Below, piece after piece: positions 35,284 through 49,033 of a DNA stretch of 64,000 nt (position 1 is its first letter; each line of letters starts with the position of its first letter). The notes beneath the pieces were generated by a model, which saw nothing but the letters and a program-made list of their open reading frames with translations, ran no database searches and was not told the origin of the DNA. This stretch comes from Hydrogenimonas cancrithermarum (lineage in GTDB: Bacteria > Campylobacterota > Campylobacteria > Campylobacterales > Hydrogenimonadaceae), in the NCBI RefSeq assembly GCF_030296055.1, contig NZ_AP027370.1:1972501-2036500 (forward strand), given 5' to 3'. The position numbers and the translations under genes were made by a program.

Positions 35284-36444
35284 TCACGTCTGTTTGAAGG
35301 TAATGGTAAAGGTGCTTCCTTCACCCTCTTCGGAGTGAACCTCCACTTTGTACCCATAAAGCTTGCAGATGCTCTCGACGATGTTGAGTCCGATGCCAAA
35401 TCCCCCCTCCACACTGTTTTCTCTATGAAAGCGTTCGAAAATTATTTTGAGTTTCTCTTTGGGTATGCCGATACCCGTGTCGGAAACGGTCAGTACACAC
35501 TTTTTCAATGTTACGTCGATACGCCCTCCGGGACGGGTATATTTGATCGCATTGTCGAGAAGATTTTTGATGAGCAGTTCGATATGATGGGCATCCGCTT
35601 CGACTTGATACGGTTCGATGGAGGTTTTGACATCGACTCTTTTCTGTTCCGCGAGGATCGAGAAGAAATCGATGCTCTCCATCACTTTTTTATCGATCGC
35701 GACTCGGGTGAGATGTTCGGGTTCCGGCGACTCCTGTTTAAGCAGCAGAAAACTCAAATCTTCGTAAACCCTCGCTATGAGCCGGCCACTCATCTGAAGC
35801 GCTTTGAGATAGATCGGTTTGCACTCCTTTTTTTCTATTTTCTGCAGGGCCAGAAGCATCGTCGTCACGGGCGTATTGAGCTCATGGGTGCTGTCTTTGA
35901 TAAACCGGTCCATCGTTTCGATCTTTTCCCGCATCGGTTCGAGGAAAAGGCGTCCGAGGTACCATCCGACAAAGACAAGAAAACCATACGCCATCACGGC
36001 CATCATCGTTACGTTGCGACTGCACCGGAGCATCTGTCGGTGTAACGAGCAGTCCCGTACGACGATCGCGTCGATTCCCATATGCCCACGTACGCTCCTG
36101 TCGATATAGTAGGCACACCCATCTTCGACATACCGGTCACGGCTCAGATCGACCGATTCGGCGATACATCCGCCAATGGCACGGCCGTCGTGACCTATCA
36201 GCCGATACTCGCACCCCACACTTTGGGGAATTTCGAAAGGGGTGCCGCGCATCTGTGCATCGACGGCGGAGGCGGAAATCTGCATCGCTTCCATGCGAAG
36301 GTGGCTGAATACACGCTCTTTTATCGATTTGGAGTCGATCTGGTAAAAGAGAATCGAAAAAGCGGTGACGACCAGAAAACTCGCCCCCAGATAGATCGCC
36401 ATAAAACGGAAGAGCGAGCGCTTCTCATAGGGACTCAAAGCCAT
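35284..36444 (-). CDS. Sensor histidine kinase of an OmpR-type two-component system
   Basis: The 386-residue protein has a membrane helix at about 13-33, a periplasmic region of about 115 residues containing several cysteines (near residues 78, 93, 110, 132 and 141), and a second helix at about 146-165. The H-box STHELNTP (His 187), N-box NLLDNAIKY and G-box GIGIPKEKLKIIFERF follow. The cysteine-bearing sensor could detect redox or metals, but this is a guess. Its start lies within the end of the response regulator gene (overlap 36425-36444). Confidence 0.92.
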   Translation of the reverse strand: MALSPYEKRSLFRFMAIYLGASFLVVTAFSILFYQIDSKSIKERVFSHLRMEAMQISASAVDAQMRGTPFEIPQSVGCEYRLIGHDGRAIGGCIAESVDLSRDRYVEDGCAYYIDRSVRGHMGIDAIVVRDCSLHRQMLRCSRNVTMMAVMAYGFLVFVGWYLGRLFLEPMREKIETMDRFIKDSTHELNTPVTTMLLALQKIEKKECKPIYLKALQMSGRLIARVYEDLSFLLLKQESPEPEHLTRVAIDKKVMESIDFFSILAEQKRVDVKTSIEPYQVEADAHHIELLIKNLLDNAIKYTRPGGRIDVTLKKCVLTVSDTGIGIPKEKLKIIFERFHRENSVEGGFGIGLNIVESICKLYGYKVEVHSEEGEGSTFTITFKQT

Positions 36445-37081
36445 AGCCGACGCCCCTTTCCGTCACGATGTTGGGCACGAATTTCCGTAAAACTTTGATA
36501 TAGCTTCGCAAGGTCGCATCGGTGGGTTGCTCTTCGTAACTCCAGATATTTTGCAAGAGCTCTTCTCGCGAAACGATTCGGCCGCGGTTTTTGTAGAGGT
36601 AATGGAGGATTTCGGCGGCTTTGGGGGTGAGTAATTCGTTCTTCCCCTCGATTTTCAGTGTATGGGTGGGTATGTCGAAGTAGAGGTTTTCGGCCAGTTG
36701 GATCGGTTCTTTTTGGTCGATGCCGTACACACGTACGATATGCTCGATGCGGGCGTCGAGTTCTTCGAATTCGAACGGTTTTTTGATGTAGTCGTCGCAT
36801 CCCAGGTCAAATCCCTCTTTGAGGTCTTTGCTGCTGTTGCGTGAGGTGATCATGATGGCAGGGGTCATGTCTTTGCGTTCGCGCATGGCATGCAGAAGCT
36901 CGAAACCGTCGATGCCGGGTACGTTCACATCAAGAAGAAGCAGATCGAATTTTCCACGCAAAAGTGCATCTTCCGCTTTCTCTCCATCGATGAAGTGTTC
37001 GACACTGTGACCACTCTCCTCCAGATGTTCGACCACGAGTTCGGCCAACATCGAATCATCTTCAAGCAATAATATTTTCAT
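36425..37081 (-). CDS. OmpR-family response regulator
   Basis: The 218-residue protein has a receiver domain (acidic pair EDD at 7-9, phosphoacceptor Asp near residue 52 in LLLDVNVPGIDG, and KKPFEFEELDARI) and a winged-helix DNA-binding domain (LTPKAAEILHYLYKNRGRIVSREELLQNIW, then DATLRSYIKVLRKF). It is translated before and overlaps its kinase. A TAAAAT box ends six bases upstream of the ATG. It is divergent from the beta-barrel/MMPL genes, which may be its targets. Confidence 0.93.
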   Translation of the reverse strand: MKILLLEDDSMLAELVVEHLEESGHSVEHFIDGEKAEDALLRGKFDLLLLDVNVPGIDGFELLHAMRERKDMTPAIMITSRNSSKDLKEGFDLGCDDYIKKPFEFEELDARIEHIVRVYGIDQKEPIQLAENLYFDIPTHTLKIEGKNELLTPKAAEILHYLYKNRGRIVSREELLQNIWSYEEQPTDATLRSYIKVLRKFVPNIVTERGVGYGFESL

Positions 37082-37123: not shown

Positions 37124-37178
37124 TCGCCACCGTAATAATATATTGTTATATTCATACAAAAATTCCACTGGGGTGCCG

Positions 37179-38513
37179 ATGCGGTCTGTTCTTTCTCTCT
37201 CTTTTTTTATTTTCACTCTGACGGCAGTGTGGGCCGATTCGTTGTTTCAAAGAGAGAACAGTGCCGTAACCCAACTGTTCCGGACCGATTTCGGAACGTT
37301 GCGGGGCTCCTCTTTTCCCTCTGCCCTGTTGCTTTTCGAATCGCAGGCCCAAACCGGGGAGTGGCAGACCGAAGCATCTTTGATCTTTCAGGGAAACGGC
37401 GATTTTACCGATACCGGGTTCGATTTCAACCAGCTTTCCATGACCCGCTATCTGGAGGAGGATGAGATAAAGATCGGAAAATTCGTCACCTCCGTAGGGG
37501 TATTGGACTATCTCTCTCTCGCCAACGTTCTAAACCCTGTCAGGGCACAGTTTTTCGACGATGCAAATCCAAATATCCGCCGTATTCCCCTCTGGATGGT
37601 TCAGGGTACTCTCTCTCCTGCGGACGAAACGACGTTCCGTTTTTTCATCGAGCCTTTCGACAGTCGTTACCAAGATTACACCAGTACCTACCTTTCGATC
37701 GCGCTCGACCGCCTTTTGCCGCAATATTTCTCTTCCTACAATCTCGACGACGAGACGCTGGAAGTGATACGAAATGAAATTTTCCTTCCGGCCTATACCC
37801 AGGGCATCGCACCCTCCATCAAAAGAAAAGTGGGCAACTACTACAGTTTCGACAACTTTACGCTTGACAAAACAATGATCGGCTTCGATTATACCCATGC
37901 GGATTTCGATACCATGGTGGGTGTCAACTGGTTCAACAAATATTCGGAAGTTCCCTTTATCGAAGTCGATCCGGATCTGATCGCACTGATTCAGAACGAA
38001 GGGGATGCTGCCGAACATATCAAAGAGTATCTGGATCAAAATGACCTTTCGGTCGTCAAATCGGTCGAAGGGTTTCGTTACAATCAGGTCTCCATCTATG
38101 GAGAGGGGGCGTTTTCCGAGTATGGCATGCGTTTCGAGGCTACGTATCGTGATAAAATTCCGTTGATAGACGATTTTTCCGCACTCTTCATGGTCGGGGC
38201 GGGTATCGATCACAGCGGCGCTTCCTCATATAACGATTTCGAACTCCAATGGATCTATCTCGACGAGAGTGGACAAAACATATTTGCGACGATCTGGGTC
38301 TACAAATATCCTCCATTTTTTTTGAACGGAATTTCCATTCGTCCGGAAAACTATACGATGTACGGCGCTACGGAGGGTGCACATCAAATCAGTTTTCTCC
38401 CCAATCTCACATTCGACTATCGGGAACATCTGCAGCTTCGTATTCAGTACCTCTTCTATCCGGACGATGCCTATTACAACACCTTTATGGCCACGTTGGG
38501 AGTAAGGTTTTGA
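37179..38513 (+). CDS. Predicted outer-membrane beta-barrel protein coupled to an MMPL transporter
   Basis: I start at ATG 37179 (MRSVLSLSF). The 444-residue product has a signal peptide (LSLSFFIFTLTAVWA) and then a long series of amphipathic strands (WQTEASLIFQGNGDF, DEIKIGKFVTSVGVLDY, HLQLRIQYLFYP), ending TFMATLGVRF with a C-terminal phenylalanine. That supports an outer-membrane barrel of about the size of a DUF1302-type or fatty-acid-channel-like protein; no family is certain. The TTG start of the MMPL gene overlaps its TGA. This points to a joint inner/outer-membrane export path. Confidence 0.65.
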   Translation: MRSVLSLSFFIFTLTAVWADSLFQRENSAVTQLFRTDFGTLRGSSFPSALLLFESQAQTGEWQTEASLIFQGNGDFTDTGFDFNQLSMTRYLEEDEIKIGKFVTSVGVLDYLSLANVLNPVRAQFFDDANPNIRRIPLWMVQGTLSPADETTFRFFIEPFDSRYQDYTSTYLSIALDRLLPQYFSSYNLDDETLEVIRNEIFLPAYTQGIAPSIKRKVGNYYSFDNFTLDKTMIGFDYTHADFDTMVGVNWFNKYSEVPFIEVDPDLIALIQNEGDAAEHIKEYLDQNDLSVVKSVEGFRYNQVSIYGEGAFSEYGMRFEATYRDKIPLIDDFSALFMVGAGIDHSGASSYNDFELQWIYLDESGQNIFATIWVYKYPPFFLNGISIRPENYTMYGATEGAHQISFLPNLTFDYREHLQLRIQYLFYPDDAYYNTFMATLGVRF

Positions 38514-40378
38514 GGCTTTCCGGCAAAGTCGCGCTTCTCATCCTCGTCTGGGCCATGCTTTTCTCTCTTGTCGGTAGACTCAACTTCGTTCAGATAGACT
38601 GGGAGAGTTTTTTCCCGCAACGTTCCCATGCCGCGATCGAAAAGAGTTGGTTCGCTCCCACTGTTCAATATCTTTTCGTCGAACTTCCGAACGCTGAAGT
38701 GCTTGAAGCTTTGAAAAGCCGGGGGGTTGTACGCTCCTTCTATCCCGTTGTGACGGGGCATACCACCCTTTTTCTCATTCTGTTTGAACGTAGGTTGCAA
38801 CAAGAGGTTCTACGAAGCGTTCGCGATTTTCCCCATGCCGGTACGGTCATGGCTTCGACGATGCTTCTTGAAAATTTCTATGGGGCGCTTCGTAGCTATC
38901 TCGGTATCGTGGTCCCTCTGCTTTTGGCCTTCAGCTTTCTCGTTTTTCCTTTGCGCTATTGGATCTCCGTTTTGCTGGAGCTTTCGATCTATCTTCTTTT
39001 CAATATGGGGGTACTCTTTCTTTTTCGGATTCCCGTCAGCCCTATATCGATGCTTGCATGGCTCTTTCTTTTTATCTACGCTTTGACGCTGCTCAACTAT
39101 ATGCATCTTGGAGAGATGAATCGCGGAAAACTGGCATTGGGTATCGGCGTTTCCATTGTCACGACATTGATCAGTGCCATCTATCTCAATTTCTCCGATT
39201 TCGGTCTCATTCACGAATTCGGAGAGAGTTTGACGCTCGGGCTTCTATTGCTGGGCCTCTTTCTCGTTGTGCGGATGTTTGGAATACGCCACACCCAATT
39301 CGTCTCCGTGTGGGTCGAAAGAGTACGTAAAAAGCTTGAGGGGTTTCGTGTTCATCGCCTGTTGTCACTTTTTTACATAGGTGTTCTTGGGCTGCTTCCG
39401 TTTTTCGGCAATGCACTCACCATCGATCTCAACCCTTTCAACATTTTTGGAAACGACTCACGGGTACGGGAGGGGATCGCATCGTTCGAAAAGGAACATG
39501 TACCGGCTCTCCCTTTTGTGGTTTCGCTTCGATTTGATAATGTCGACGCCGATTTTTACCGCTTCGAAGATGCGAAAAGGTTATCGAAGGCGATCGGAGA
39601 GATTGAAAAGAACATTTCAGCAGTGCCTCTCGTGACACTGCACACGCTTTACGAATCGTTCGCCGGACAACCTTTTTCCAAAGCCACAGACGCGAGCTAT
39701 GCACAATTTCTTCTGGCACTCGAAATGCTGGAAGAGCCTCTTCCCATCTTCACTACGGATGGAAAAACGGCATATCTTACCTATTCGCTTTCGTTGACGA
39801 CACCCTCCGAAAAGATTCGGGCGCTCGTCGGAAAAATCCGGGAGTTGAACGCGTCTTTCCCGAATGTCACACTTCGGGTGATGGGGAAAGTGGCAGATTT
39901 CGAGTTTATGTCGAAACGATTCTTGAACGAAGCGGCCGTCGGATTTGGAATGTCGTTTATTTTCATTCTGGCTTTTTTTCTCTTTTACTGCAAAACATGG
40001 CGTATCGTACCGGCCATTGTCGTCAGTGCCTGCTTTCCGCTCGTCATGTTCATCGCTTTTCATATGGCATTCGGTATGCCGTTTACACTGATTTCCATGA
40101 TCGCCCTTATTCTCTATGCCGGGTTGTACGCCGACTCTTTCATCCACATATTCATCTGTTATGCACAAGAGAAAGGGCGTTGCCTTTCAGCGGTGCTTCG
40201 CCCCATCGTCATCTCCAATCTGACGATGATCGCAGCACTTGCGGGAATGGTGTTTTCCGGCTCGATACTCGGCGGTTTCGGCATCGAAATGACGCTGCTA
40301 CTCTTTTCCAATCTGATCGGGGTTTTCGTTCTGCTTCCTGCACTCCTGATAAGGTGGGTCAGGAACTGCAACGTTTGA
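38510..40378 (+). CDS. MMPL/RND-superfamily membrane transporter
   Basis: I start at TTG 38510, which overlaps the barrel stop codon. The 622-residue protein has a first helix (KVALLILVWAMLFSLVG), a periplasmic loop, five to six helices, a second periplasmic domain (about residues 300-460), and another helix bundle at the end (GFGMSFIFILAFFLFYC, IALILYAGLYADSFIHIF). This is the half-RND topology of MMPL-type exporters, with an Asp in the putative proton-relay helix (GLYADSFIH). Such proteins move lipids, hopanoids or lipoproteins using proton flux. No adaptor protein is encoded next to it. Confidence 0.8.
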   Translation: MRLSGKVALLILVWAMLFSLVGRLNFVQIDWESFFPQRSHAAIEKSWFAPTVQYLFVELPNAEVLEALKSRGVVRSFYPVVTGHTTLFLILFERRLQQEVLRSVRDFPHAGTVMASTMLLENFYGALRSYLGIVVPLLLAFSFLVFPLRYWISVLLELSIYLLFNMGVLFLFRIPVSPISMLAWLFLFIYALTLLNYMHLGEMNRGKLALGIGVSIVTTLISAIYLNFSDFGLIHEFGESLTLGLLLLGLFLVVRMFGIRHTQFVSVWVERVRKKLEGFRVHRLLSLFYIGVLGLLPFFGNALTIDLNPFNIFGNDSRVREGIASFEKEHVPALPFVVSLRFDNVDADFYRFEDAKRLSKAIGEIEKNISAVPLVTLHTLYESFAGQPFSKATDASYAQFLLALEMLEEPLPIFTTDGKTAYLTYSLSLTTPSEKIRALVGKIRELNASFPNVTLRVMGKVADFEFMSKRFLNEAAVGFGMSFIFILAFFLFYCKTWRIVPAIVVSACFPLVMFIAFHMAFGMPFTLISMIALILYAGLYADSFIHIFICYAQEKGRCLSAVLRPIVISNLTMIAALAGMVFSGSILGGFGIEMTLLLFSNLIGVFVLLPALLIRWVRNCNV

Positions 40379-41081
40379 GGCGGTTCTTTTTGAAAAGTGT
40401 GGCCGAGATGTCGGATGTGATCGTCGATTTGTCGACGCGAAATCTAAGAATACGCTTTTTATCGTGATCGACGATATGCCATGCGAGCACCATCGCCTCT
40501 TCACCGATATTTCCGATGTCGTCGATCACGATCTCTTTTTTGAGCCGGCCGTTTTCATAGGTTTCGATTTTTTTCAGCCGTTTCGAGTTTTTTTCGACCA
40601 GATAGACGGTAATACATCCCGGCCTCTTCCTCTTCGTGATTTTGTAAAGTTCCCCCGTTTCGGTTTCGATCGTCTCGATGGGGAGAAATGTACCGCTCAT
40701 GTCGTGCAGTTCGGCATATGAGATTCCCAGCCCCACCGCTTCTTTGTTTTCCTTGTTTTTGGGGATGATCCGAACTCTGCCGAGAGAGGGGAAGTAGACA
40801 TAGGTCTGTGTCATGGTACCGCTTTTGCGTGTCAGAATCGTTGTACATCGAAGCGTGGATGGAGCCAGGAATCGTATCAAAAGATCGCTGTTGCGGGCAT
40901 CGTTTTTCTTTGCCACGACAAAGGAGCGTTTTTGAACCCCATTCTCTCTTTCCACTGTCGAGTGCACGAGAAAACGGATGTTTTTATGGGAGAAAAGACG
41001 AACGCTTCGTTCGAGTATCTCTTTAGGACTTTCGGCAGAAAGCAGGATGGGTAGTAAAACGAGAATCACATATTTTTTCAT
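40359..41081 (-). CDS. LolA-like outer-membrane lipoprotein-sorting protein
   Basis: The 240-residue protein has a signal peptide (KKYVILVLLPILLSAES) and the pattern of the LolA-like / DUF4292-type outer-membrane lipoprotein-sorting family: long beta-strands such as DLLIRFLAPSTLRCTTILTR, MTQTYVYFPSLGRVRIIP and the GETGELYKI region. The fold is a half-open barrel that holds lipid or lipoprotein acyl chains in the periplasm. This subfamily often accompanies MMPL transporters. Its gene converges with the MMPL gene, overlapping it by 20 bases, and its start overlaps the lipoprotein stop. Confidence 0.75.
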   Translation of the reverse strand: MKKYVILVLLPILLSAESPKEILERSVRLFSHKNIRFLVHSTVERENGVQKRSFVVAKKNDARNSDLLIRFLAPSTLRCTTILTRKSGTMTQTYVYFPSLGRVRIIPKNKENKEAVGLGISYAELHDMSGTFLPIETIETETGELYKITKRKRPGCITVYLVEKNSKRLKKIETYENGRLKKEIVIDDIGNIGEEAMVLAWHIVDHDKKRILRFRVDKSTITSDISATLFKKNRLKRCSS

Positions 41082-43123
41082 GCGGCAGGTGTGCTCCCAT
41101 CGGTGGTGTTGGTGTCATCCTCTCCCTGCATCGCCTCCATCGCGAGAATCCAGTCGAGCGCATCGAGCGTCACTTCCCTCAAACTCTTCTGATTTTCCAG
41201 AACGGCCAGCGCATACTCCTGCATGTTTTCCATCATCTGCTCCGTATTCTTGCCGATCAGCGTCACGATCTGGTCTTTGGTTTGCGGTTTGTACCACTTC
41301 CGATCGAGAATCAGTGCAATGCCTGTTAGAATGAGGTTGACGATCAATTTCATGCCCCCGTAGATCAACAGGCCGAAATCGAGGATCAACATCTCTGTAT
41401 AGACGATCAGCTGTTCGGTATAGACGATACGATCCGACATTTCTCCAATGCGGTCGGCCATCTGCCCGATCTGAACCGCCATCCATAAAACACGATCCGC
41501 CATGATGCCGACCTCTTCACCGCGTGATGCGAAGAGGTATCCCCACTCCATGCCCTGCAGTGCGAAGTTGTAGGCGTCATCTTCGATCTTCATCGTAAAA
41601 CCGTATGCAAGATCGGCCATATGGGTGGCGAAGTCGTAAGCATCCGACTCGGTCTGTGCCGTGAAGGTGTAAGAGAGGTTCGCCATCAGCGATGCGAAAT
41701 TGTAGGCATCGGTTTCGGTCTGTGTCGTGAAATCGAAAGCGTCCCCTTCCGTAGTCACCGCAAAATTGTACGCCTGTGTCGAAAGTGTATCGATGAGCTC
41801 CGTGATGGTCGTCGCCACATCGCCGCTTTCGTCCCCTGTCGTGATGGATGCGATCAGATCGTGAAGATAGCTGTTGAACGTTTCATCGTACGGATTGATC
41901 TGTGATCCGAAAAGAAATTCGAAACTCTGCGCTTCCGATCCTTCGGCAAAACCTGCACTCTCTTCCAGGACCGCCTGGAAACCGTTTTGGGCCAGCAGGT
42001 TGAAAAGCGATTTGAGTGCCAGAGCGAAGACGGCCATTATTTTGGAGCGTCTTTTCAAATTGTCGACAAGCTCTTGGTCTTCGGGGCTTAGCGTATAACT
42101 GCTATCGGCGGAAAGAGCCTCCATGAGCCTTTTGGCTTTCGCCTGGGTATCAGCTGTAACATTCGTCATCACCTGGGTCAGGAACGCCAGAAGAACGGAG
42201 ACGAGTTGGCTCTGGGTGACGACATTTTGTAAAAAACCGACAAGCTCCTGTTCCTCTTCCGCGCTCAAATCCCGTGTCGAAACGGCGGAAACCTGTGCCG
42301 AACCACCCTCCGCGAGTCTGTCCAGCGATATCAGCCCGAAGAGTGAAATCGCCGCGATGACCATCTTCCCGAGGCTTATGACGATATTGTCGTTATCGTC
42401 GAAATTGAGGTCGTTCAGACTCTTCTCTTTTACAATCTGGAGCAGTTGATCGATGGCGAGATAGGTCAGTACCGTATAGGCCAATCCTTTGACCTTGTCC
42501 TGGTCGAGCAAAAGTTCGAGCGTATTTTTCAACACTTCCATCGAAACCGTCAGGAGGTTGACGATCGTTTCGGAAAAATTCCCTTCCGCGAGTTGCTGAA
42601 CAAGATCGTTGAAACCATCGAGTGCACCGGTGTCGGTTTCTCGAAGCTGCATCGCCGCAATCGATCGAATCTCCACCGAATCGAGTGCCGTTGCAGTCGT
42701 TTTGTCGACTTTGTAGCCGATAAGACGAAGCGAAGCGATCATTTTTTCGAACTGGTGGTTGTACTGCTGCCCGGCGATCTCGTGATAGGTCAGATAGTGT
42801 TCCCATACGCTTTTCCCACCGACGCTTCTCAGATAAGAAGCTTCCGGCTGTCGGGTTTTGAAAAACGTACTTGTATCCAGAGCCCCCAATGCACGTTGCA
42901 TCAAACCTCCGGTGGTACCCGTACCGGTGACTGTCGAAGCCGCCGTTTGGTTGAACTCTCCGAGTGTCGTGTTCAGTCCGCTCTGCTTTCTCTTCAGTGC
43001 CGTCACCGAACTGTCGAGCTTTGAAAGCGTTGAAGAACCACCTCCACCACCACATCCGCTGAAAAAGACAGGTCCTGAAAGCGTAGAGGCCGCAGCTACA
43101 CTGATAAAACTTCTCCTATCCAT
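41078..43123 (-). CDS. Tat-exported lipoprotein with 11- and 7-residue repeats
   Basis: AAGGAG lies five bases before ATG 43123, which I prefer over GTG 43129. The 681-residue protein has a twin-arginine signal (MDRRSFISVAAAS) ending in a lipobox FFSGC (Cys 24) and a poly-glycine linker, so it should be lipid-anchored. Residues 50-445 are helical. Residues 451-538 hold eight tandem 11-residue repeats (consensus AYxFA-x5-D/L). Residues 541-603 hold nine 7-residue repeats (MADRIGE, MSDRIVY and similar) that grow hydrophobic. The overlapping downstream gene encodes a LolA-like protein. Function is unknown; a lipid-surface or scaffold role is inferred. Confidence 0.75.
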   Translation of the reverse strand: MDRRSFISVAAASTLSGPVFFSGCGGGGGSSTLSKLDSSVTALKRKQSGLNTTLGEFNQTAASTVTGTGTTGGLMQRALGALDTSTFFKTRQPEASYLRSVGGKSVWEHYLTYHEIAGQQYNHQFEKMIASLRLIGYKVDKTTATALDSVEIRSIAAMQLRETDTGALDGFNDLVQQLAEGNFSETIVNLLTVSMEVLKNTLELLLDQDKVKGLAYTVLTYLAIDQLLQIVKEKSLNDLNFDDNDNIVISLGKMVIAAISLFGLISLDRLAEGGSAQVSAVSTRDLSAEEEQELVGFLQNVVTQSQLVSVLLAFLTQVMTNVTADTQAKAKRLMEALSADSSYTLSPEDQELVDNLKRRSKIMAVFALALKSLFNLLAQNGFQAVLEESAGFAEGSEAQSFEFLFGSQINPYDETFNSYLHDLIASITTGDESGDVATTITELIDTLSTQAYNFAVTTEGDAFDFTTQTETDAYNFASLMANLSYTFTAQTESDAYDFATHMADLAYGFTMKIEDDAYNFALQGMEWGYLFASRGEEVGIMADRVLWMAVQIGQMADRIGEMSDRIVYTEQLIVYTEMLILDFGLLIYGGMKLIVNLILTGIALILDRKWYKPQTKDQIVTLIGKNTEQMMENMQEYALAVLENQKSLREVTLDALDWILAMEAMQGEDDTNTTDGSTPAA
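41510..41773 (-). repeat. Eight tandem 33-base units encoding 11-residue repeats
   Basis: The encoded units start at A or S (G in the last), have Y/F at position 2 and F at position 4 in all eight, and A or T at position 5. Most end in an acidic or hydrophobic residue. Units run from the minus-strand position 41773 down to 41510 with no insertions. Confidence 0.85.
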
Positions 43124-43269
43124 CGCCACTCCTTATTTATATAAATTTTACTAATCCATGATAACTGATGAATGATTAGTTCAATATTAAATTAACTTAT
43201 ATGTTTAACTTCTTTTTACCATTTCGAAAAATTATTTTACGGGTTTTTGGATGCATTTATTCGCCATTC

Positions 43270-43299
43270 CACACTTTTTCCACACTTCTTTTTTACAAT
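43270..43299 (+). promoter_or_regulatory. Copper-type promoter (site 1): CACA direct repeat plus -10, before FixH-like/CusCBA
   Basis: CACACTT occurs at 43270-43276 and again at 43281-43287, an 11-base step. TACAAT at 43294-43299 starts 13 bases after the second copy, so the repeats replace the -35 box. The same geometry recurs at 59286 and 63840. The remainder of the 208-base gap 43124-43331 is A+T-rich and otherwise featureless. Confidence 0.7.
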
Positions 43300-43331
43300 C
43301 CCTCAACCAAACAACACAAAAGGAGAAAGCA

Positions 43332-43715
43332 ATGAGACTATTGCCATTCGCAGCAACCATTCTGCTCGCATTTATATCCCTTCAGGCGGCCGCGTTCGAA
43401 AAGACGGCCAGGTATAGAAACCTGAAAGTCGAAATGGTTTCGGACAAACCGCTGACACCGGGCACGAATCGCCTCAAACTCAAAGTTCTCAAAGGGGGCA
43501 TGCCGCTCGACGACGCCAAAGTGGCGCTCAAAATCTTCATGCCGGCGATGCCGGGCATGCCCTACATGGAATCCAAAACGGTAGCCAAGCCGCTTGGCGA
43601 CGGCCTGTACGAAGCGACCTTCAATACGGCGATGGGCGGTACGTGGCAGGTGTACATCTTCGTAACGACCAAAGCGGGCAAAAAGTACCGCATCAAAACT
43701 TCATTGAACTTATAG
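43332..43715 (+). CDS. FixH-like periplasmic protein leading the CusCBA-like operon
   Basis: AGGAGAAAG precedes ATG 43332. The 127-residue protein has a signal peptide (LLPFAATILLAFISLQAAA) and a FixH/YtkA-like immunoglobulin fold (VSDKPLTPGTNRLKLKVLKGGMPLDDAKVALKIFMPAMPGMPYM). The methionine-rich MPAMPGMPYM loop suits Cu(I) binding, as in CusF-type metallochaperones, although the fold is different. It lies nine bases ahead of the TolC-family gene. A role delivering copper to the efflux pump is inferred from context. Confidence 0.75.
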   Translation: MRLLPFAATILLAFISLQAAAFEKTARYRNLKVEMVSDKPLTPGTNRLKLKVLKGGMPLDDAKVALKIFMPAMPGMPYMESKTVAKPLGDGLYEATFNTAMGGTWQVYIFVTTKAGKKYRIKTSLNL

Positions 43716-43724
43716 GAACAAAAG

Positions 43725-44924
43725 ATGCGACTTTGGCTTCTTTTCATCGTGTTTGTGGCATCTGTGCAAGCAACGACCTTGCAACAACTTATCGATTCGG
43801 CACTTGCGAACCATCCAAGTTTGGATGTTGCCAAATCACGCATTGCAGCGGCCGACTATGCCGTGCAGCGGGCGAAAAACTTCGACAATCCGGTACTGGG
43901 GCTCTCGGTCAACGACCTTCGGCTCGACGATTTCACAAACCGCTCACTCGAACCGATGCAGACCCAGGCCGTAACACTGTCGCAGAAAATCCCCTGGTTC
44001 GGCAAACGTGAGACCAAAAAAGCGATCGAAGAGGCCAAAAAGTCACTGCTTTTTGCTTCAATGAAGGAAGCCGAAGCGGAGCTCGTCGCACGCATCAGGC
44101 AAAACGGCTACCGCATTTGGGAGATCGAGCGCCTGATCGCCATTACACGCGACACGATCGCGCTGACTGAGCAGAACATTGAACTCTACGAAGCCTACAC
44201 CGCTTCGAGCGAATCGGGCAACACCCATATGGGCATCATGTCCGCCGAACTGGTCAAGTCACGTCTGAAAACTTCGCTGAGCCGCTTTGAGGCACAAAAA
44301 GCCCAAACCCTCGCACTGCTCGAATATCTGAGCTTTCAAAGTATCGATCATCTGCAAGTCGATCTTCCTGCCGAGAAACTTCTGCCGCTGCAAAAGCTGA
44401 AAGAGAAAATTGTTCAAAGCCCTTCGCTTAAAAGCAAAATGGCGGGAAAAGATGTCGTGAAAGAGAAGCTCTCGCTTGCCAGAACGCAAACCAGTATCGA
44501 TCCGGTGCTTCGTGTCGGCTACTACCAGCGGGCATCTTACGACGATTATATTTCGATCGGTGTCGGCTTCGCAATGCCGGTCTACGGTACTGAAAAGAGC
44601 AAAATCGAAGAGACACGGGCCAATCTTCTGGCACAACGAAGCAACGTTGCCGATACGAAAATGAGACTGACTGCCAAACTCGAAGAACTCTATGCGAGAG
44701 CGAAAAGCGAACGAGAAATCCTGCAGATCGTCAAAAACGAGAGCCTGCCGCAGATCGGCCATATGTTTGACCTGATCCGTGCCGACATCGCCGCAGGCGG
44801 GGATCTTTATAAATTCGTCGATCTTGTTGAACAAAAGTTGGCTCTGGAAGCTCAGGCGATCTTGGCGCGGGCGAATTTTCACAAAACAATGGCACAGATC
44901 GATGCCCTTTTAGGAGAATATTAA
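43725..44924 (+). CDS. TolC-family outer-membrane efflux protein (CusC-like)
   Basis: The 399-residue protein has a signal peptide (RLWLLFIVFVASVQA) and two outer-membrane-efflux repeats, starting LQQLIDSALANHPSLDVAKSRIAAADYAVQRAKNFDNP. Long helices (ESGNTHMGIMSAELVKSRLKTSL) form the periplasmic tunnel. It should be the outer-membrane exit duct of the pump encoded by the next two genes. Its stop touches the start of the adaptor gene. No lipobox is visible, unlike some CusC proteins. Confidence 0.9.
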   Translation: MRLWLLFIVFVASVQATTLQQLIDSALANHPSLDVAKSRIAAADYAVQRAKNFDNPVLGLSVNDLRLDDFTNRSLEPMQTQAVTLSQKIPWFGKRETKKAIEEAKKSLLFASMKEAEAELVARIRQNGYRIWEIERLIAITRDTIALTEQNIELYEAYTASSESGNTHMGIMSAELVKSRLKTSLSRFEAQKAQTLALLEYLSFQSIDHLQVDLPAEKLLPLQKLKEKIVQSPSLKSKMAGKDVVKEKLSLARTQTSIDPVLRVGYYQRASYDDYISIGVGFAMPVYGTEKSKIEETRANLLAQRSNVADTKMRLTAKLEELYARAKSEREILQIVKNESLPQIGHMFDLIRADIAAGGDLYKFVDLVEQKLALEAQAILARANFHKTMAQIDALLGEY

Positions 44925-45917
44925 ATGAAAAAACTCTGGATATGGCTGATCCCTTTGGGGCTCATGGCCGAACCGCCGAGCGTCGAGCAGCTCTTCAACG
45001 TGCAGACGGTGAAGGTGAAAAAAGTGACCACGGCTTACGAAAAAAGTTTTTACGGTCTGCTCAAAGCCGACGAACGGCGTATCGTCGACGTCGTACCGCG
45101 ATTCGGCGGCTTCGTCGTCGAACTCTATGCCGACAGGATCTACACCCGCATCAAGAAGGGTGAAGCGTTGGCCAAAGTCTACTCGCCGGAAGTTTTCAAG
45201 GCCAAAGAGGAGTATCTCAACTCTCTGCGTTACGCAAAGAAACGGGGCAATAGGGGGATGGTCGAAAGTGCCAAGCGCAAGCTTCAGCTATTGGGCATCG
45301 ATAATAATGAGATCGTACAATGCACAAAAACAGGCAGAGCCGACCCCTACACTCTCATCCGCGCCCCGCAAAGCGGATATCTTTTTGGAAAGGATCTTTT
45401 TAATGGGAGTGCGTTCAATGCCAAGTCACGCATCTTCCGTATTGTAGGATTGGAGAATATCTGGGTCGAAGCCAAAATCAGCGAACCCGACATTCCGCGC
45501 GTCATGGGGGCCAAAGCGTTTTCGGTGACGACCAAAGCGGTCAGCGGAACGTTTGAAGCCAAGCATCCGTTTCTCTATCCGTCCATCGATCCACAAAGCG
45601 CACTGGCAACACTGCGACTCGATGTCAAAAATGAAAATGGAAAACTGATGCCCGGCATGTTCGCCACGCTGCATGCCAAAAGCGCTCCCAAAGCGATGCT
45701 GGTCCTGCCGAGGAGGGCCGTCATACGCAAGATGAACCGCTGGTACGTCTTCAAAGCAGGCGAATTCGAAGGGGAGTACGAACCGGTGGAGGTCTCCATC
45801 AAACCGATCGACAACGAACGATATGCCATTCTTTCGGGGCTCTCGGAAGGCGATGAAGTGGTGAACAATGCCTTGTTCATGATCGACAGCGATGCGCAGA
45901 TCAATGGATCGTTTTAG
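44925..45917 (+). CDS. Periplasmic adaptor of a CusA-type RND pump (CusB-like)
   Basis: The 330-residue protein has a signal peptide (KLWIWLIPLGLMAEP) and the membrane-fusion layout: a barrel-sandwich lipoyl half (VDVVPRFGGFVVELYADRIYTRIKKGEALAKVYSPEV), a helical hairpin (FKAKEEYLNSLRYAKKRGN), the second lipoyl half (IRAPQSGYLF), and a beta-barrel (NIWVEAKISEPDIPRVMG). The lipoyl and hairpin pattern is that of CusB. It lacks the long N-terminal metal-binding extension of E. coli CusB; the FixH-like protein may serve instead. Confidence 0.88.
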   Translation: MKKLWIWLIPLGLMAEPPSVEQLFNVQTVKVKKVTTAYEKSFYGLLKADERRIVDVVPRFGGFVVELYADRIYTRIKKGEALAKVYSPEVFKAKEEYLNSLRYAKKRGNRGMVESAKRKLQLLGIDNNEIVQCTKTGRADPYTLIRAPQSGYLFGKDLFNGSAFNAKSRIFRIVGLENIWVEAKISEPDIPRVMGAKAFSVTTKAVSGTFEAKHPFLYPSIDPQSALATLRLDVKNENGKLMPGMFATLHAKSAPKAMLVLPRRAVIRKMNRWYVFKAGEFEGEYEPVEVSIKPIDNERYAILSGLSEGDEVVNNALFMIDSDAQINGSF

Positions 45918-45925
45918 GTGCCGCC

Positions 45926-48900
45926 ATGATTGAAAAGATCATCGATTTCAGCGTCAAAAACCGTTTCCTGGTCCTTATGGCGACGCTTTTCATTATCATG
46001 GGTTCGATCTGGGCCGTTCGCAACACACCGCTGGATGCCCTGCCTGACCTCTCGCCGCCGCAGGTGATCGTACAGGTCAAATGGAACGGTCAGAGCCCGA
46101 ACATCATCGAAGACCAGGCGACCTATCCGCTCATTACAAAGTTTCTGGCCATCGCCGACATCGAAACGGTGCGCGGTTTTTCGACCTACGAAAATGCGCT
46201 CATCTACATCATCTTCAAGGACGGTACCGACTTCTACTGGGGCCGCAGCCGCGTCCTCGAGCAACTGGCAGCCATTCAAAGCAGACTGCCGCCGGGTGTG
46301 GAAGTGTCGCTGGGGCCCGACGCGTCGGGAGTCGGCTGGGTCTACGAGTACGCGTTGGTCTCCCAAACCAAAAACCTCGCCGAACTGCGTACCCTGCAGG
46401 ATTACACCTTCAAATACGCCCTGATGGGCGTCGACGGCGTCAGTGACGTCGCGACCATCGGCGGCTTCGTGCCGACCTGGCAGGTGACGGTGAGCAACGA
46501 TGCGCTGGTGCGCCACAATCTCTCCATCGGCGACGTGGCCCGCGTACTGAAAGCCAACAACAACGACACGGGCGGACGCATCGTCATCCAGAACGGCTAC
46601 GAGTGGATGGTGCAGGCGCGCGGTTACATTCGAAACAGGGGCGACATCCGCAACCTCGTCATCGTGCAGCGTGACGGCGTGCCGGTCACCATCGGTGACA
46701 TCGGACGCGTCGAAGTGGTGCCGGCACCTCGCCGCGGCATCGCCGATCTCAACGGTGAAGGGGAAGTGGTCGGTGGCATCGTGATGGTCCGCTACGGTGA
46801 AGACGCCTACCGCGTCATCGAGCATGTCAAAAAGAAGCTGAACGAGATCGAAGTCGAGGGTGTCGATATCGTCGAAACCTACGATCGCAGCGGGCTCATC
46901 GAAAAGGCGGTCGATACGCTCAAAAACACGCTCTTTGAAGAGAGCCTCATCGTCGTCGTTGTCATCGCCCTCTTTCTGGTGCATCTGCGCAGCTCCCTGA
47001 TCGTGCTGATCATCCTGCCCCTGACGATCGGCATGACCTTTTTGCTGATGAAACTCTTCGGCATCGGCAGCAACATCATGAGCCTCGGCGGCATCGCCAT
47101 CGCGATCGGCGCGATGGTCGACGCTTCGATCGTCATGATAGAAAACGCCCACAAGGCGATCCTCAAAATCGTCGAAGAGAAAGGTTCGATCACGAACGAA
47201 GAGCGTATCGCCGCCATCGTAAGCGCTTCCAAAACGGTCGGACGCCCCATCTTTTTCGCACTGGCACTCGTCGTGGTCTCATTTCTGCCCATCTTCGCGC
47301 TTTCGGGCCAGGAGGGACTGCTCTTCACCCCGTTGGCGTTTACCAAAACCTTCGCGATGACGGCAGGTGCACTGCTGGCGGTGACCCTGGTACCGGTGCT
47401 GATGGTCTGGTTCGTGCGCGGCAAGATCCCGAGTGAGAAAAAGAACCCGCTCAACCGTTTTTTCATCTGGCTCTACCACCCGCTGCTGATCGTGGGACTG
47501 AAATTCAAGTATCTCATCATCTTGGCCGCCGTCCTTTTGCTGGCGTGGATGGTGCCGGTGTACGAAAAGCTCAAGTGGGAATTCATGCCGCCTCTCAACG
47601 AACAGACCTTCATGTATATGCCGGTCACGCCGTACGGCATCAGCGTGGACCTCAGCAAAGCGCTGACGCAAAAGACCGACAAGATCATCAAGAGCTTCCC
47701 GGAAGTGGCCACGGTCTTCGGCAAGGGCGGCCGTGCCGACACGGCGACCGACCCGGCACCGCTGGGGATGCTGGAGACCATCATCACCTTCAAACCCAAA
47801 AGCGAGTGGCGGGAAGGGATGACTTACGAAAAACTGCAGCAAGAGTTCGAAGACGCCCTGCAGGTGCCGGGCCTCGTCAACTCCTGGACCTACCCTATCC
47901 GAGGGCGCATCGACATGCTGCTTAGCGGCATCCGGACGCCGCTTGGCATCAAGCTCTACGGCGATGACCCCAAAACGCTGCAAACCGTCGGAGTCGTGAT
48001 CGAAGAGAAGCTGCGCGGCATGGGTGAGACGATGTCGGTCTTCGCCGACCAGTCGGATGCGGGCTACTACATCGACATCGACATCGACGAAACGGCGCTG
48101 GCGCGCTACGGTATCACGAAAAAGAGATTGCTCGAATATACCTCTTCGGGCATCGGCGGCATGAAAGTGAGTACGATGATCAAAGGGTTGGAGCGTTACC
48201 CCATTGCCGTGCGCTTCGAAGAGGAAGACCGCCGCACGATCGAGGCGATCCGCAACATTCAGGTCAAGACGCCGCTGGGATTCGTGCCGCTCTCTACGCT
48301 GGCGAATGTCCACTACAAAGAGAGCGCCTCGGTCATCAAGACCGAAATGGCCAAACCGGTCACCTTCATCTACATCACGCCGCGCAGCGGCATCAGCCCG
48401 GCCGAGTACAAAGAGAAGGCACAAGCCATGTTGCGCGACTTGAAGCTGCCGGCCGGTTATTACATCGAGTGGGCGGGGCAGTCGGAGTATCTGGAGAGCG
48501 CGATGCGAAAGATTTCCTGGATCGCCCCGACGGTGCTGCTGGTCATTCTGGTGCTGATCTACTTCGCACTTAAAAAGATCGTGCCGACACTCATCGTCTT
48601 TTTCACGCTGCCCTTCGCGCTGCTGGGCGGCCTGCTCTACATCGACTGGCTCGATTTCAACATGAGCGTCGCCGTCATCGTCGGTTTCCTGGCACTGCTG
48701 GGTGTCGCGGCCGAAACGGCGATCATCATGATCGTCTATCTGCAGGAGAGCGTGCATGAAGCGAAAGAGCGTTACGGAACGCTCGACAAGAAGCAGCTTC
48801 GAAAAGCGATCTTCGAAGGCGCCGTACAGCGGGTGCGACCGAAACTGATGACCGTCTTCGCGATCCTGGCCGGATTGCTGCCGATTATGGTCAGCCACGG

Positions 48901-49033
48901 CGTCGGCAGCGAAGTGATGCAGCGCATCGCCGCCCCGATGATCGGCGGCGTCGTCAGCTCGGCGGTGCTGAGCCTGTTGATCATTCCGATTTTGTACGAG
49001 ATTTACGCGGCACGCAGGTATTTGTCGAACTGA
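45926..49033 (+). CDS. cusA: CusA-type heavy-metal RND efflux pump
   Basis: The 1035-residue protein begins MIEKIIDFSVKNRFLVLMATL and shows HME-RND features: TPLDALPDLSPPQVIVQVKW, the membrane-helix-4 signature GGIAIAIGAMVDASIVMIEN that matches CusA, and GVAAETAIIMIVYL near the end. It has twelve membrane helices and two large periplasmic domains. The Met-containing MYMPVTPYGIS segment is in the area where CusA binds Cu(I). It should export Cu(I)/Ag(I) by proton exchange together with the preceding adaptor and TolC-type genes. Exact metal is inferred from similarity. Confidence 0.93.
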   Translation: MIEKIIDFSVKNRFLVLMATLFIIMGSIWAVRNTPLDALPDLSPPQVIVQVKWNGQSPNIIEDQATYPLITKFLAIADIETVRGFSTYENALIYIIFKDGTDFYWGRSRVLEQLAAIQSRLPPGVEVSLGPDASGVGWVYEYALVSQTKNLAELRTLQDYTFKYALMGVDGVSDVATIGGFVPTWQVTVSNDALVRHNLSIGDVARVLKANNNDTGGRIVIQNGYEWMVQARGYIRNRGDIRNLVIVQRDGVPVTIGDIGRVEVVPAPRRGIADLNGEGEVVGGIVMVRYGEDAYRVIEHVKKKLNEIEVEGVDIVETYDRSGLIEKAVDTLKNTLFEESLIVVVVIALFLVHLRSSLIVLIILPLTIGMTFLLMKLFGIGSNIMSLGGIAIAIGAMVDASIVMIENAHKAILKIVEEKGSITNEERIAAIVSASKTVGRPIFFALALVVVSFLPIFALSGQEGLLFTPLAFTKTFAMTAGALLAVTLVPVLMVWFVRGKIPSEKKNPLNRFFIWLYHPLLIVGLKFKYLIILAAVLLLAWMVPVYEKLKWEFMPPLNEQTFMYMPVTPYGISVDLSKALTQKTDKIIKSFPEVATVFGKGGRADTATDPAPLGMLETIITFKPKSEWREGMTYEKLQQEFEDALQVPGLVNSWTYPIRGRIDMLLSGIRTPLGIKLYGDDPKTLQTVGVVIEEKLRGMGETMSVFADQSDAGYYIDIDIDETALARYGITKKRLLEYTSSGIGGMKVSTMIKGLERYPIAVRFEEEDRRTIEAIRNIQVKTPLGFVPLSTLANVHYKESASVIKTEMAKPVTFIYITPRSGISPAEYKEKAQAMLRDLKLPAGYYIEWAGQSEYLESAMRKISWIAPTVLLVILVLIYFALKKIVPTLIVFFTLPFALLGGLLYIDWLDFNMSVAVIVGFLALLGVAAETAIIMIVYLQESVHEAKERYGTLDKKQLRKAIFEGAVQRVRPKLMTVFAILAGLLPIMVSHGVGSEVMQRIAAPMIGGVVSSAVLSLLIIPILYEIYAARRYLSN

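Follow-up and report, generated by a model that had tools for sequence, protein, structure and literature searches.

Gene organization of the lipoprotein locus

The window, comprising the whole 64,000-nucleotide stretch of DNA analyzed here from the hydrothermal-vent bacterium Hydrogenimonas cancrithermarum (contig NZ_AP027370.1, positions 1,972,501 to 2,036,500), harbors a gene encoding a putative surface lipoprotein of the Tat type alongside genes for putative transport components of the cell envelope. The genes of this cassette and the export signal of the lipoprotein are as follows.

37143..38513 (+): outer-membrane barrel, DUF1302-related, with 33% identity to the corresponding neighbor in Sulfuricurvum (L056)
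38249..40378 (+), with homology from near 38528: RND-like inner-membrane transporter, convergent, proposed on weak HpnN/SecF matches and on co-occurrence
40359..41081 (-): LolA-like periplasmic protein (PF17131; Pfam E 9.6e-15)
41078..43123 (-): Tat-type lipoprotein, defined by its open reading frame, a Shine-Dalgarno sequence (AAGGAG) 5' of the ATG and the alignment of full-length homologs
43052..43123 (-): twin-arginine signal peptide (DRRSFI) and lipobox (FFSG/C), with a Gly-rich tether after it

The lipoprotein measures 681 aa from the ATG at 43123 and 683 aa from a GTG at 43129, and its residues are numbered here from the GTG. Judging by the sequence, the ATG appears the more likely start, because the GTG overlaps the ribosome-binding site AAGGAG. 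The designation of this protein as a lipoprotein in the initial annotation is backed by the twin-arginine signal (RRSF) and by the lipobox (FFSG/C), which places the lipidation site at Cys26 (43052-43054, -). Both elements are conserved in homologs, and the alignment reveals conservation of RR-x-F and of a CGGG tether in those of loci L056, L057, L059, L061 and L063. A Pfam scan of the lipoprotein did not return any family above its cut-off.

The stop codon of the lipoprotein gene overlaps the start codon of the LolA-like gene (ATGA), an arrangement of translational coupling, and a whole-genome search identified the latter as the only PF17131 gene of the genome. The best family match of the RND-like protein was HpnN (E 4e-4), far below the cut-off, and other RND homologs encoded in these cassettes presented no family match or a weak match to SecF; the Hydrogenimonas transporter and that of a Thiotrichales bin share 27% identity over 625 aa. 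The L056 barrel matches PF06980 (DUF1302) at 7.7e-10, and no Pfam match above cut-off was obtained for the barrel in the window or for several other cassette barrels.

Loci L056-L061 and L063 show the same order of lipoprotein, LolA-like protein and convergent transporter, and also the barrel where the contig reaches it; a PF17131 protein is encoded in the window and in L056-L063. The cassette is found in Sulfuricurvum, Sulfurimonas, Thiomicrorhabdus and Thiotrichales. The LolA-like gene lies directly downstream of the lipoprotein gene at every locus with enough sequence, in both Campylobacterota and Gammaproteobacteria. The RND-like gene was detected in all seven genomes that encode a full-length lipoprotein, whereas the 33 genomes without it yielded at most a weak partial match and no copy near full length. 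These 40 genomes were chosen by hand, from earlier draws, so that every positive observed was among them, and the figures hence describe an association and not a random sample.

Two other gene groups flank the cassette. The adjoining cluster at 43251-49033 (+) encodes a YtkA/FixH-like protein, a TolC-like protein, a membrane fusion protein and an RND pump of 1035 aa, and resembles a metal exporter of the Cus/Czc type. The other group, at 35284-37081 (-) beside the barrel gene, encodes a sensor kinase paired with a response regulator, and it is possible that this pair regulates the cassette.

Repeat architecture of the lipoprotein

The C-terminal third of the lipoprotein contains the following features.

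41516..41779 (-): eight 11-residue repeats, residues 451-538, with the family consensus D-D-A-Y-x-F-A-S-K-[GT]-E
41321..41509 (-): nine 7-residue repeats, residues 541-603, read from the sequence
41378..41515 (-): core MADRI heptad module, residues 539-584, common to many otherwise unrelated proteins
41435..41773 (-): continuous stripe of small residues, residues 453-565, with a spacing of 4-4-3 across the 11-mers and of 4-3 across the heptads
41309..41365 (-): C-terminal segment of highest hydrophobicity, residues 589-607, with a mean Kyte-Doolittle value of 1.84 over 19 residues
41117..41272 (-): conserved C-terminal helix, residues 620-671, as predicted from the alignment and the model (pLDDT 53-71 over most of it)

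The initial annotation had described eight perfect 11-residue repeats at 41510-41773, coordinates that cover residues 453-540, with a strict period defined by Tyr or Phe at position 2, Phe at position 4 and Ala or Thr at position 5. All eight units fit this definition, with the pattern [ASG]-[YF]-x-F-[AT], their cores reading, in order, AYNFA, AFDFT, AYNFA, SYTFT, AYDFA, AYGFT, AYNFA and GYLFA. Autocorrelation of the protein sequence confirmed the period, with peaks of 0.27, 0.37 and 0.26 at lags 11, 22 and 33 against 0.02-0.12 at other lags, and none of 20,000 shuffles was as periodic as the array, even with the period left free. The peak at lag 22 is the strongest because Ala and Thr alternate at position 5 along the units (A T A T A T A A). 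The repeats are perfect at the pattern positions, but not elsewhere, since the units share just 2-7 of their 11 residues pairwise. A recent duplication of the 11-mers at the DNA level was rejected: any two units agree at 12-22 of 33 bases, and the DNA of the repeat region revealed no tandem array with a 33-bp period. The divergence of the units and the lack of a matching DNA tandem array suggest that the repeat is old and has been maintained by selection.

All nine of the heptads first described (GIMADRV, LWMAVQI, GQMADRI, GEMSDRI, VYTEQLI, VYTEMLI, LDFGLLI, YGGMKLI and VNLILTG) are present, with Ile or Val at position 7 in eight of them, but just about four are MADRI-like. The junction between the 11-mers and the heptads is highly conserved (GM-x-x-GY-x-FA-x-x-GEE-[VL]-G-x-MA-[DN]-R) in the Tat lipoproteins of Sulfuricurvum, Sulfurimonas, Thiomicrorhabdus and Thiotrichales, and also in signal-less proteins of Sulfurimonas and Thiovulum and in signal-less proteins of ~290 aa from Desulfobulbaceae and other Proteobacteria bins. 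The initial annotation had named loss of the period in close homologs as evidence against its reading, and this was borne out in part: homologs have between 3 and 8 of the 11-mers, and the close homologs of L057, L059, L060 and L063 just 3-4, whereas the junction and the heptads are never absent. The heptad module is therefore the conserved core of the region, and the 11-mers are a variable extension of it.

Both repeats contribute to a continuous stripe of small residues, made by positions 3, 7 and 10 of the 11-mers (spaced 4-4-3) and by two positions of the heptads (spaced 3-4). Read position by position from residue 453 to residue 565, the stripe is AATATTAAMSTTAAMATIAAGGAGGALAGAGS. Gly, Ala, Ser or Thr occupy 28 of its 32 positions, compared with 14 of the 84 other positions of the region (Fisher p about 2e-12). 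Because this register was picked after inspection, shifted registers are a fairer control than the p value; the best of them reaches 20 of 32 small residues, and most reach 1-16. The stripe is unbroken in 12 homologs, signal-less ones included, with 84-94% small residues. Since a single stripe runs through both repeats, the switch from an 11-residue to a 7-residue period keeps phase. Such an in-phase stripe is what would be expected of one long helix packed closely on another.

Structure prediction and fold searches

The AlphaFold model of the lipoprotein, built with an alignment of 19 sequences, presents helices at residues 436-491, 495-539, 542-607 and 620-671, with pLDDT values of 32-54 in the 11-mer array and 53-60 in the heptads. 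In the model of a signal-less Sulfurimonas relative, one helix (residues 183-280) runs through the 11-mers and another (286-353) through the heptads, and the models place a low-confidence helix break at the V-G junction between the two repeats. Only helix is hence predicted across the repeats, albeit with low confidence (pLDDT 32-60), and the repeat region is likely to be helical. The proposal that an 11/3 helix continues into a 7/2 helix draws support from the in-phase stripe in 12 relatives and from the all-helix models, but is tempered by the low confidence of these models, by a Fauchere-Pliska moment of the 11-mer that is larger at a beta-like angle (0.30 at 164 degrees) than at a helical one (0.21 at 98 degrees), and by a Kyte-Doolittle helical moment that is just borderline (p = 0.049).

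Searches by sequence did not identify a solved relative of either the lipoprotein or the MADRI module. A structure search using a profile of the cytoplasmic forms returned weak, coil-like matches (best E 0.012), and fold searches with the models produced no match at E <= 0.001. The Z values of the fold matches to the helices are of a size that long helices can reach by chance, values below about 13 being uninformative for such helices. The sole likeness to a known fold was observed for the N-terminal domain of the Sulfurimonas form, which resembles 4ye7 (Z 9.0, rmsd 2.6, 90 residues), a fold that we take to be of the KilA-N/BRO-N type.

Distribution of the MADRI module

A genome scan using a six-sequence alignment of the MADRI module (QIGxMADRIGEMADRIVYTExLI) as query detected it at a minimum of 77 loci. 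Among the matches listed, carriers include Sulfuricurvum, Sulfurimonas, Sulfurovum, Thiovulum and Hydrogenimonas in the Campylobacterota, as well as Thiomicrorhabdus, Thiotrichales, Thiomargarita, Marithrix, Halochromatium, Gallionellales, Desulfobulbaceae, Anaerolineae, an Aquificales bin, a Gracilibacteria bin and the haloarchaea Natribaculum, Haloferax and Halomicrococcus. The heptad is very similar between Campylobacterota, Gammaproteobacteria (among them sulfur oxidizers), Desulfobulbaceae, Anaerolineae and haloarchaea. The module was present in 15 of 397 genomes sampled from the phylum, and its distribution is therefore patchy. The proteins carrying it range from a signal-less form of 85 aa, through Tat-secreted haloarchaeal proteins, to proteins of ~2400 and 3675 aa. 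None of the representatives scanned scored above the cut-off of a Pfam or NCBIfam family that covers the module, the nearest being DUF7162 (25.7 versus a cut-off of 27 bits), and a literature search on the module sequence returned nothing. On the basis of these comparisons, MADRI is an undescribed and widespread module, predicted to be helical, with no name in Pfam or NCBIfam. With a name for it, many hypothetical proteins of 85 to 3675 aa could be annotated, and its association with the 11-mers would provide a natural example of a coil that stays in phase as its repeat changes from 11 to 7 residues.

The haloarchaeal carriers are Tat-type proteins of ~160 aa (L025 5704-6186, on a plasmid of Natribaculum luteum; L066, L067 and L070) with a C-terminal MADRI module. 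These modules are 70-84% identical to bacterial ones, reaching 84% identity over 32 residues, which suggests transfer of the module between domains. A phage or plasmid origin was also considered and found to be unsupported, with no phage match and no confirmed relative in viral contigs; the only plasmids with the heptad module in our search were haloarchaeal.

Several other architectures were observed among the carriers. Giant proteins encoded at L139 (G440 C1:305000-320000) and L096 carry several MADRI modules; one, of 3675 aa, contains 17.5% methionine and 0.7% arginine and lacks cysteine, and the other, of 2399 aa, contains 10.4% methionine and ends in RTX repeats. It is very unusual for methionine to be this abundant along thousands of residues. 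At L112, L116, L118 and L120-L129, adjacent genes encode pairs of secreted proteins of ~390 aa, each with MADRI modules; the pairs are conserved across bins that include Desulfobulbaceae, Sulfurovum and Helicobacteraceae, and one of these paired proteins scores just below the DUF7162 cut-off. The signal-less Sulfurimonas forms (L072 4130-7470, L075 4379-9524) sit amid a cluster of small uncharacterized proteins, one of which shares their N-terminal domain type, and some of which present Lys/Ala/Pro-rich N-terminal stretches together with a common GGENK-GYMGEA module. Many carriers oxidize sulfur, which raised the possibility of a role in sulfur globules; this would be no more than a lead, and haloarchaea and Anaerolineae carry the module too.

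Putative role of the lipoprotein

HAE3-type RND cassettes are little characterized. A lipoprotein that co-occurs with the pump and presents a predicted long repeat helix is a candidate for the missing link by which their cargo would cross the periplasm. The reading that we favor, and to which we assign an even chance, is that the protein encoded here is a coiled-coil lipoprotein dedicated to an envelope exporter of the HAE3/AmeABCD kind, within which it is probably a rod-like part of an apparent inner-to-outer-membrane system for lipids. The cassette would then comprise an RND-like pump, a LolA-like periplasmic carrier, a DUF1302-type barrel and the dedicated lipoprotein. The latter would be exported by Tat and subsequently lipid-anchored, most likely in the outer membrane as judged by the Gly at +2. 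Its C-terminal third may form one long helix, 11-mers first and heptads after, with a single stripe of small residues flanked by Phe and Tyr and then by Ile and Met. We infer that this stripe could pack tightly on a partner helix, in an oligomer or a hairpin, yielding a stiff rod that would link, scaffold or gate the transporter between the two membranes. Of this scheme, the repeats, the stripe and its conservation, the gene cluster and the co-occurrence are direct observations, whereas the helix, its oligomer, the membrane and the part played in transport are interpretation.

Two observations qualify this scheme. The variation in 11-mer number (3-8) argues against a periplasmic ruler of fixed length. 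Furthermore, signal-less relatives in Sulfurimonas, Thiovulum and Desulfobulbaceae have the 11-mer-plus-heptad part in the cytoplasm and lack the cassette, indicating that the rod itself is not specific to export. A bolder version of the scheme holds that the lipoprotein is a separate-subunit, envelope-spanning needle for a short RND pump, the split counterpart of the MmpL5 needle, and that MADRI is a cross-domain self-packing module reused in exporters, in giant Met-rich secreted proteins, in small cytoplasmic proteins of giant sulfur bacteria and in haloarchaeal Tat proteins. We consider this combined proposal unlikely.

The main rival to a structural role is that the lipoprotein is itself the cargo, with the RND-like pump and the LolA-like carrier constituting a private sorting route to the outer membrane or cell surface, where the rod would act as a spacer or matrix protein. 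The ATGA coupling to a gene of the LolA-like lipoprotein-sorting family, which is moreover the only PF17131 gene of the genome, is in keeping with such a route, as are the Cys-Gly-rich tether and the resemblance of other secreted MADRI proteins, including the giant RTX-tailed ones, to surface or matrix proteins. Nonetheless, the combination of a DUF1302-type barrel and an RND pump suggests a small hydrophobic cargo, as in AmeABCD, and PF17131 proteins are found also in genomes without this lipoprotein, so that we regard the cargo reading as rather unlikely, though to be taken seriously.

The 11-mers could instead lie flat on lipid in the manner of apolipoproteins or perilipins, with Tyr and Phe at the edges, coating an exported lipid or an inclusion. 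The initial annotation had likewise suggested that the paired aromatics could face a lipid layer. Proline-free 11-residue repeats are compatible with this notion, apoA-IV appears among the weak fold matches, and on an 11/3 wheel drawn for the consensus of 114 units an apolar face lies between Phe (131 degrees) and Tyr (295 degrees), opposite the acidic and polar positions. The same wheel, however, weakens the lipid-facing idea: the two aromatics are ~164 degrees apart, at the edges of the apolar face, and the positions between them are [G/T/M], A/G, A/T and [E/A/M]. A face centered on Ala, Gly and Thr suits helix-helix packing at least as well as lipid. The helical moment of the 11-mer is borderline (p = 0.049 by the Kyte-Doolittle scale and 0.41 by the Fauchere-Pliska scale), and the Pfam scan of the lipoprotein revealed no perilipin or apolipoprotein family. 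The array is also strongly acidic, with 2 basic (K/R) and 14 acidic (D/E) residues, a net charge of -12 and no proline, although this charge is not decisive for lipid binding in general. An apolipoprotein-like role hence seems improbable. More improbable by far is a helical membrane-inserting protein of the HBL/ClyA type, with hydrophobic helices entering a target membrane: a Pfam match to Bacillus_HBL (E 0.022), several 19-residue hydrophobic helices and a ClyA pore chain among the structural matches of the signal-less relative (Z 9.5) point that way, but the Bacillus_HBL score of 15 bits is far under the cut-off of 29.1, the Z value lies in the uninformative range for long helices, and the gene is tied to a transport cassette.

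Overall, these results confirmed the repeats described in the initial annotation and partly supported its interpretation. Helix packing now takes precedence over lipid contact, and the unnamed heptad module and the conserved export cassette take precedence over the 11-mers.

Comparison with known systems

Among repetitive proteins, the lipoprotein may be likened, by description only, to the sulfur globule protein SgpD, a secreted, repetitive protein of a sulfur oxidizer with predicted helices, but the repeats of SgpD are marked by regularly spaced prolines (PMC10386293) and the repeat region here has none. Perilipin 4, apolipoproteins and alpha-synuclein share with it tandem 11-residue repeats able to form an amphipathic 11/3 helix (PMC5889406). 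The array analyzed here differs from them in its two aromatics per repeat, its acidic net charge, its Ala/Gly stripe and its in-phase run into heptads. Perilipin 4 needs the Lys residues of its 11-mers (PMC5889406), and the acidic character of the present array, unlike those Lys-bearing units, further weakens the lipid-facing idea.

The closest parallel to the cassette as a whole is AmeABCD of Castellaniella defragrans, an HAE3 RND exporter that protects against monoterpenes and in which AmeA is a DUF1302 protein, AmeB belongs to the LolA superfamily and AmeD is the HAE3 RND component (PMC6394551). As in AmeABCD, an outer-membrane DUF1302-type barrel and a LolA-superfamily periplasmic protein are encoded together, here with a putative RND pump. 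The two systems differ in that AmeC is a COG4447 protein, for which no match was found among the cassette proteins scanned, and a putative coiled-coil Tat lipoprotein takes that place here. In addition, the RND-like protein is diverged and shorter (about 613-640 aa in the homologs versus 787 aa), and the LolA-like protein matches PF17131 and not DUF1329.

A precedent for the proposed mechanism is provided by MmpL5, an RND protein that reaches the outer membrane by means of a 125 A trimeric coiled-coil needle (PMC12262633). Like MmpL5 with its PD3 needle, the system described here would combine an RND pump with a long helical coiled coil directed toward the outer membrane; the coil of MmpL5 belongs to the pump itself, whereas here the predicted long helix resides on a separate lipoprotein.
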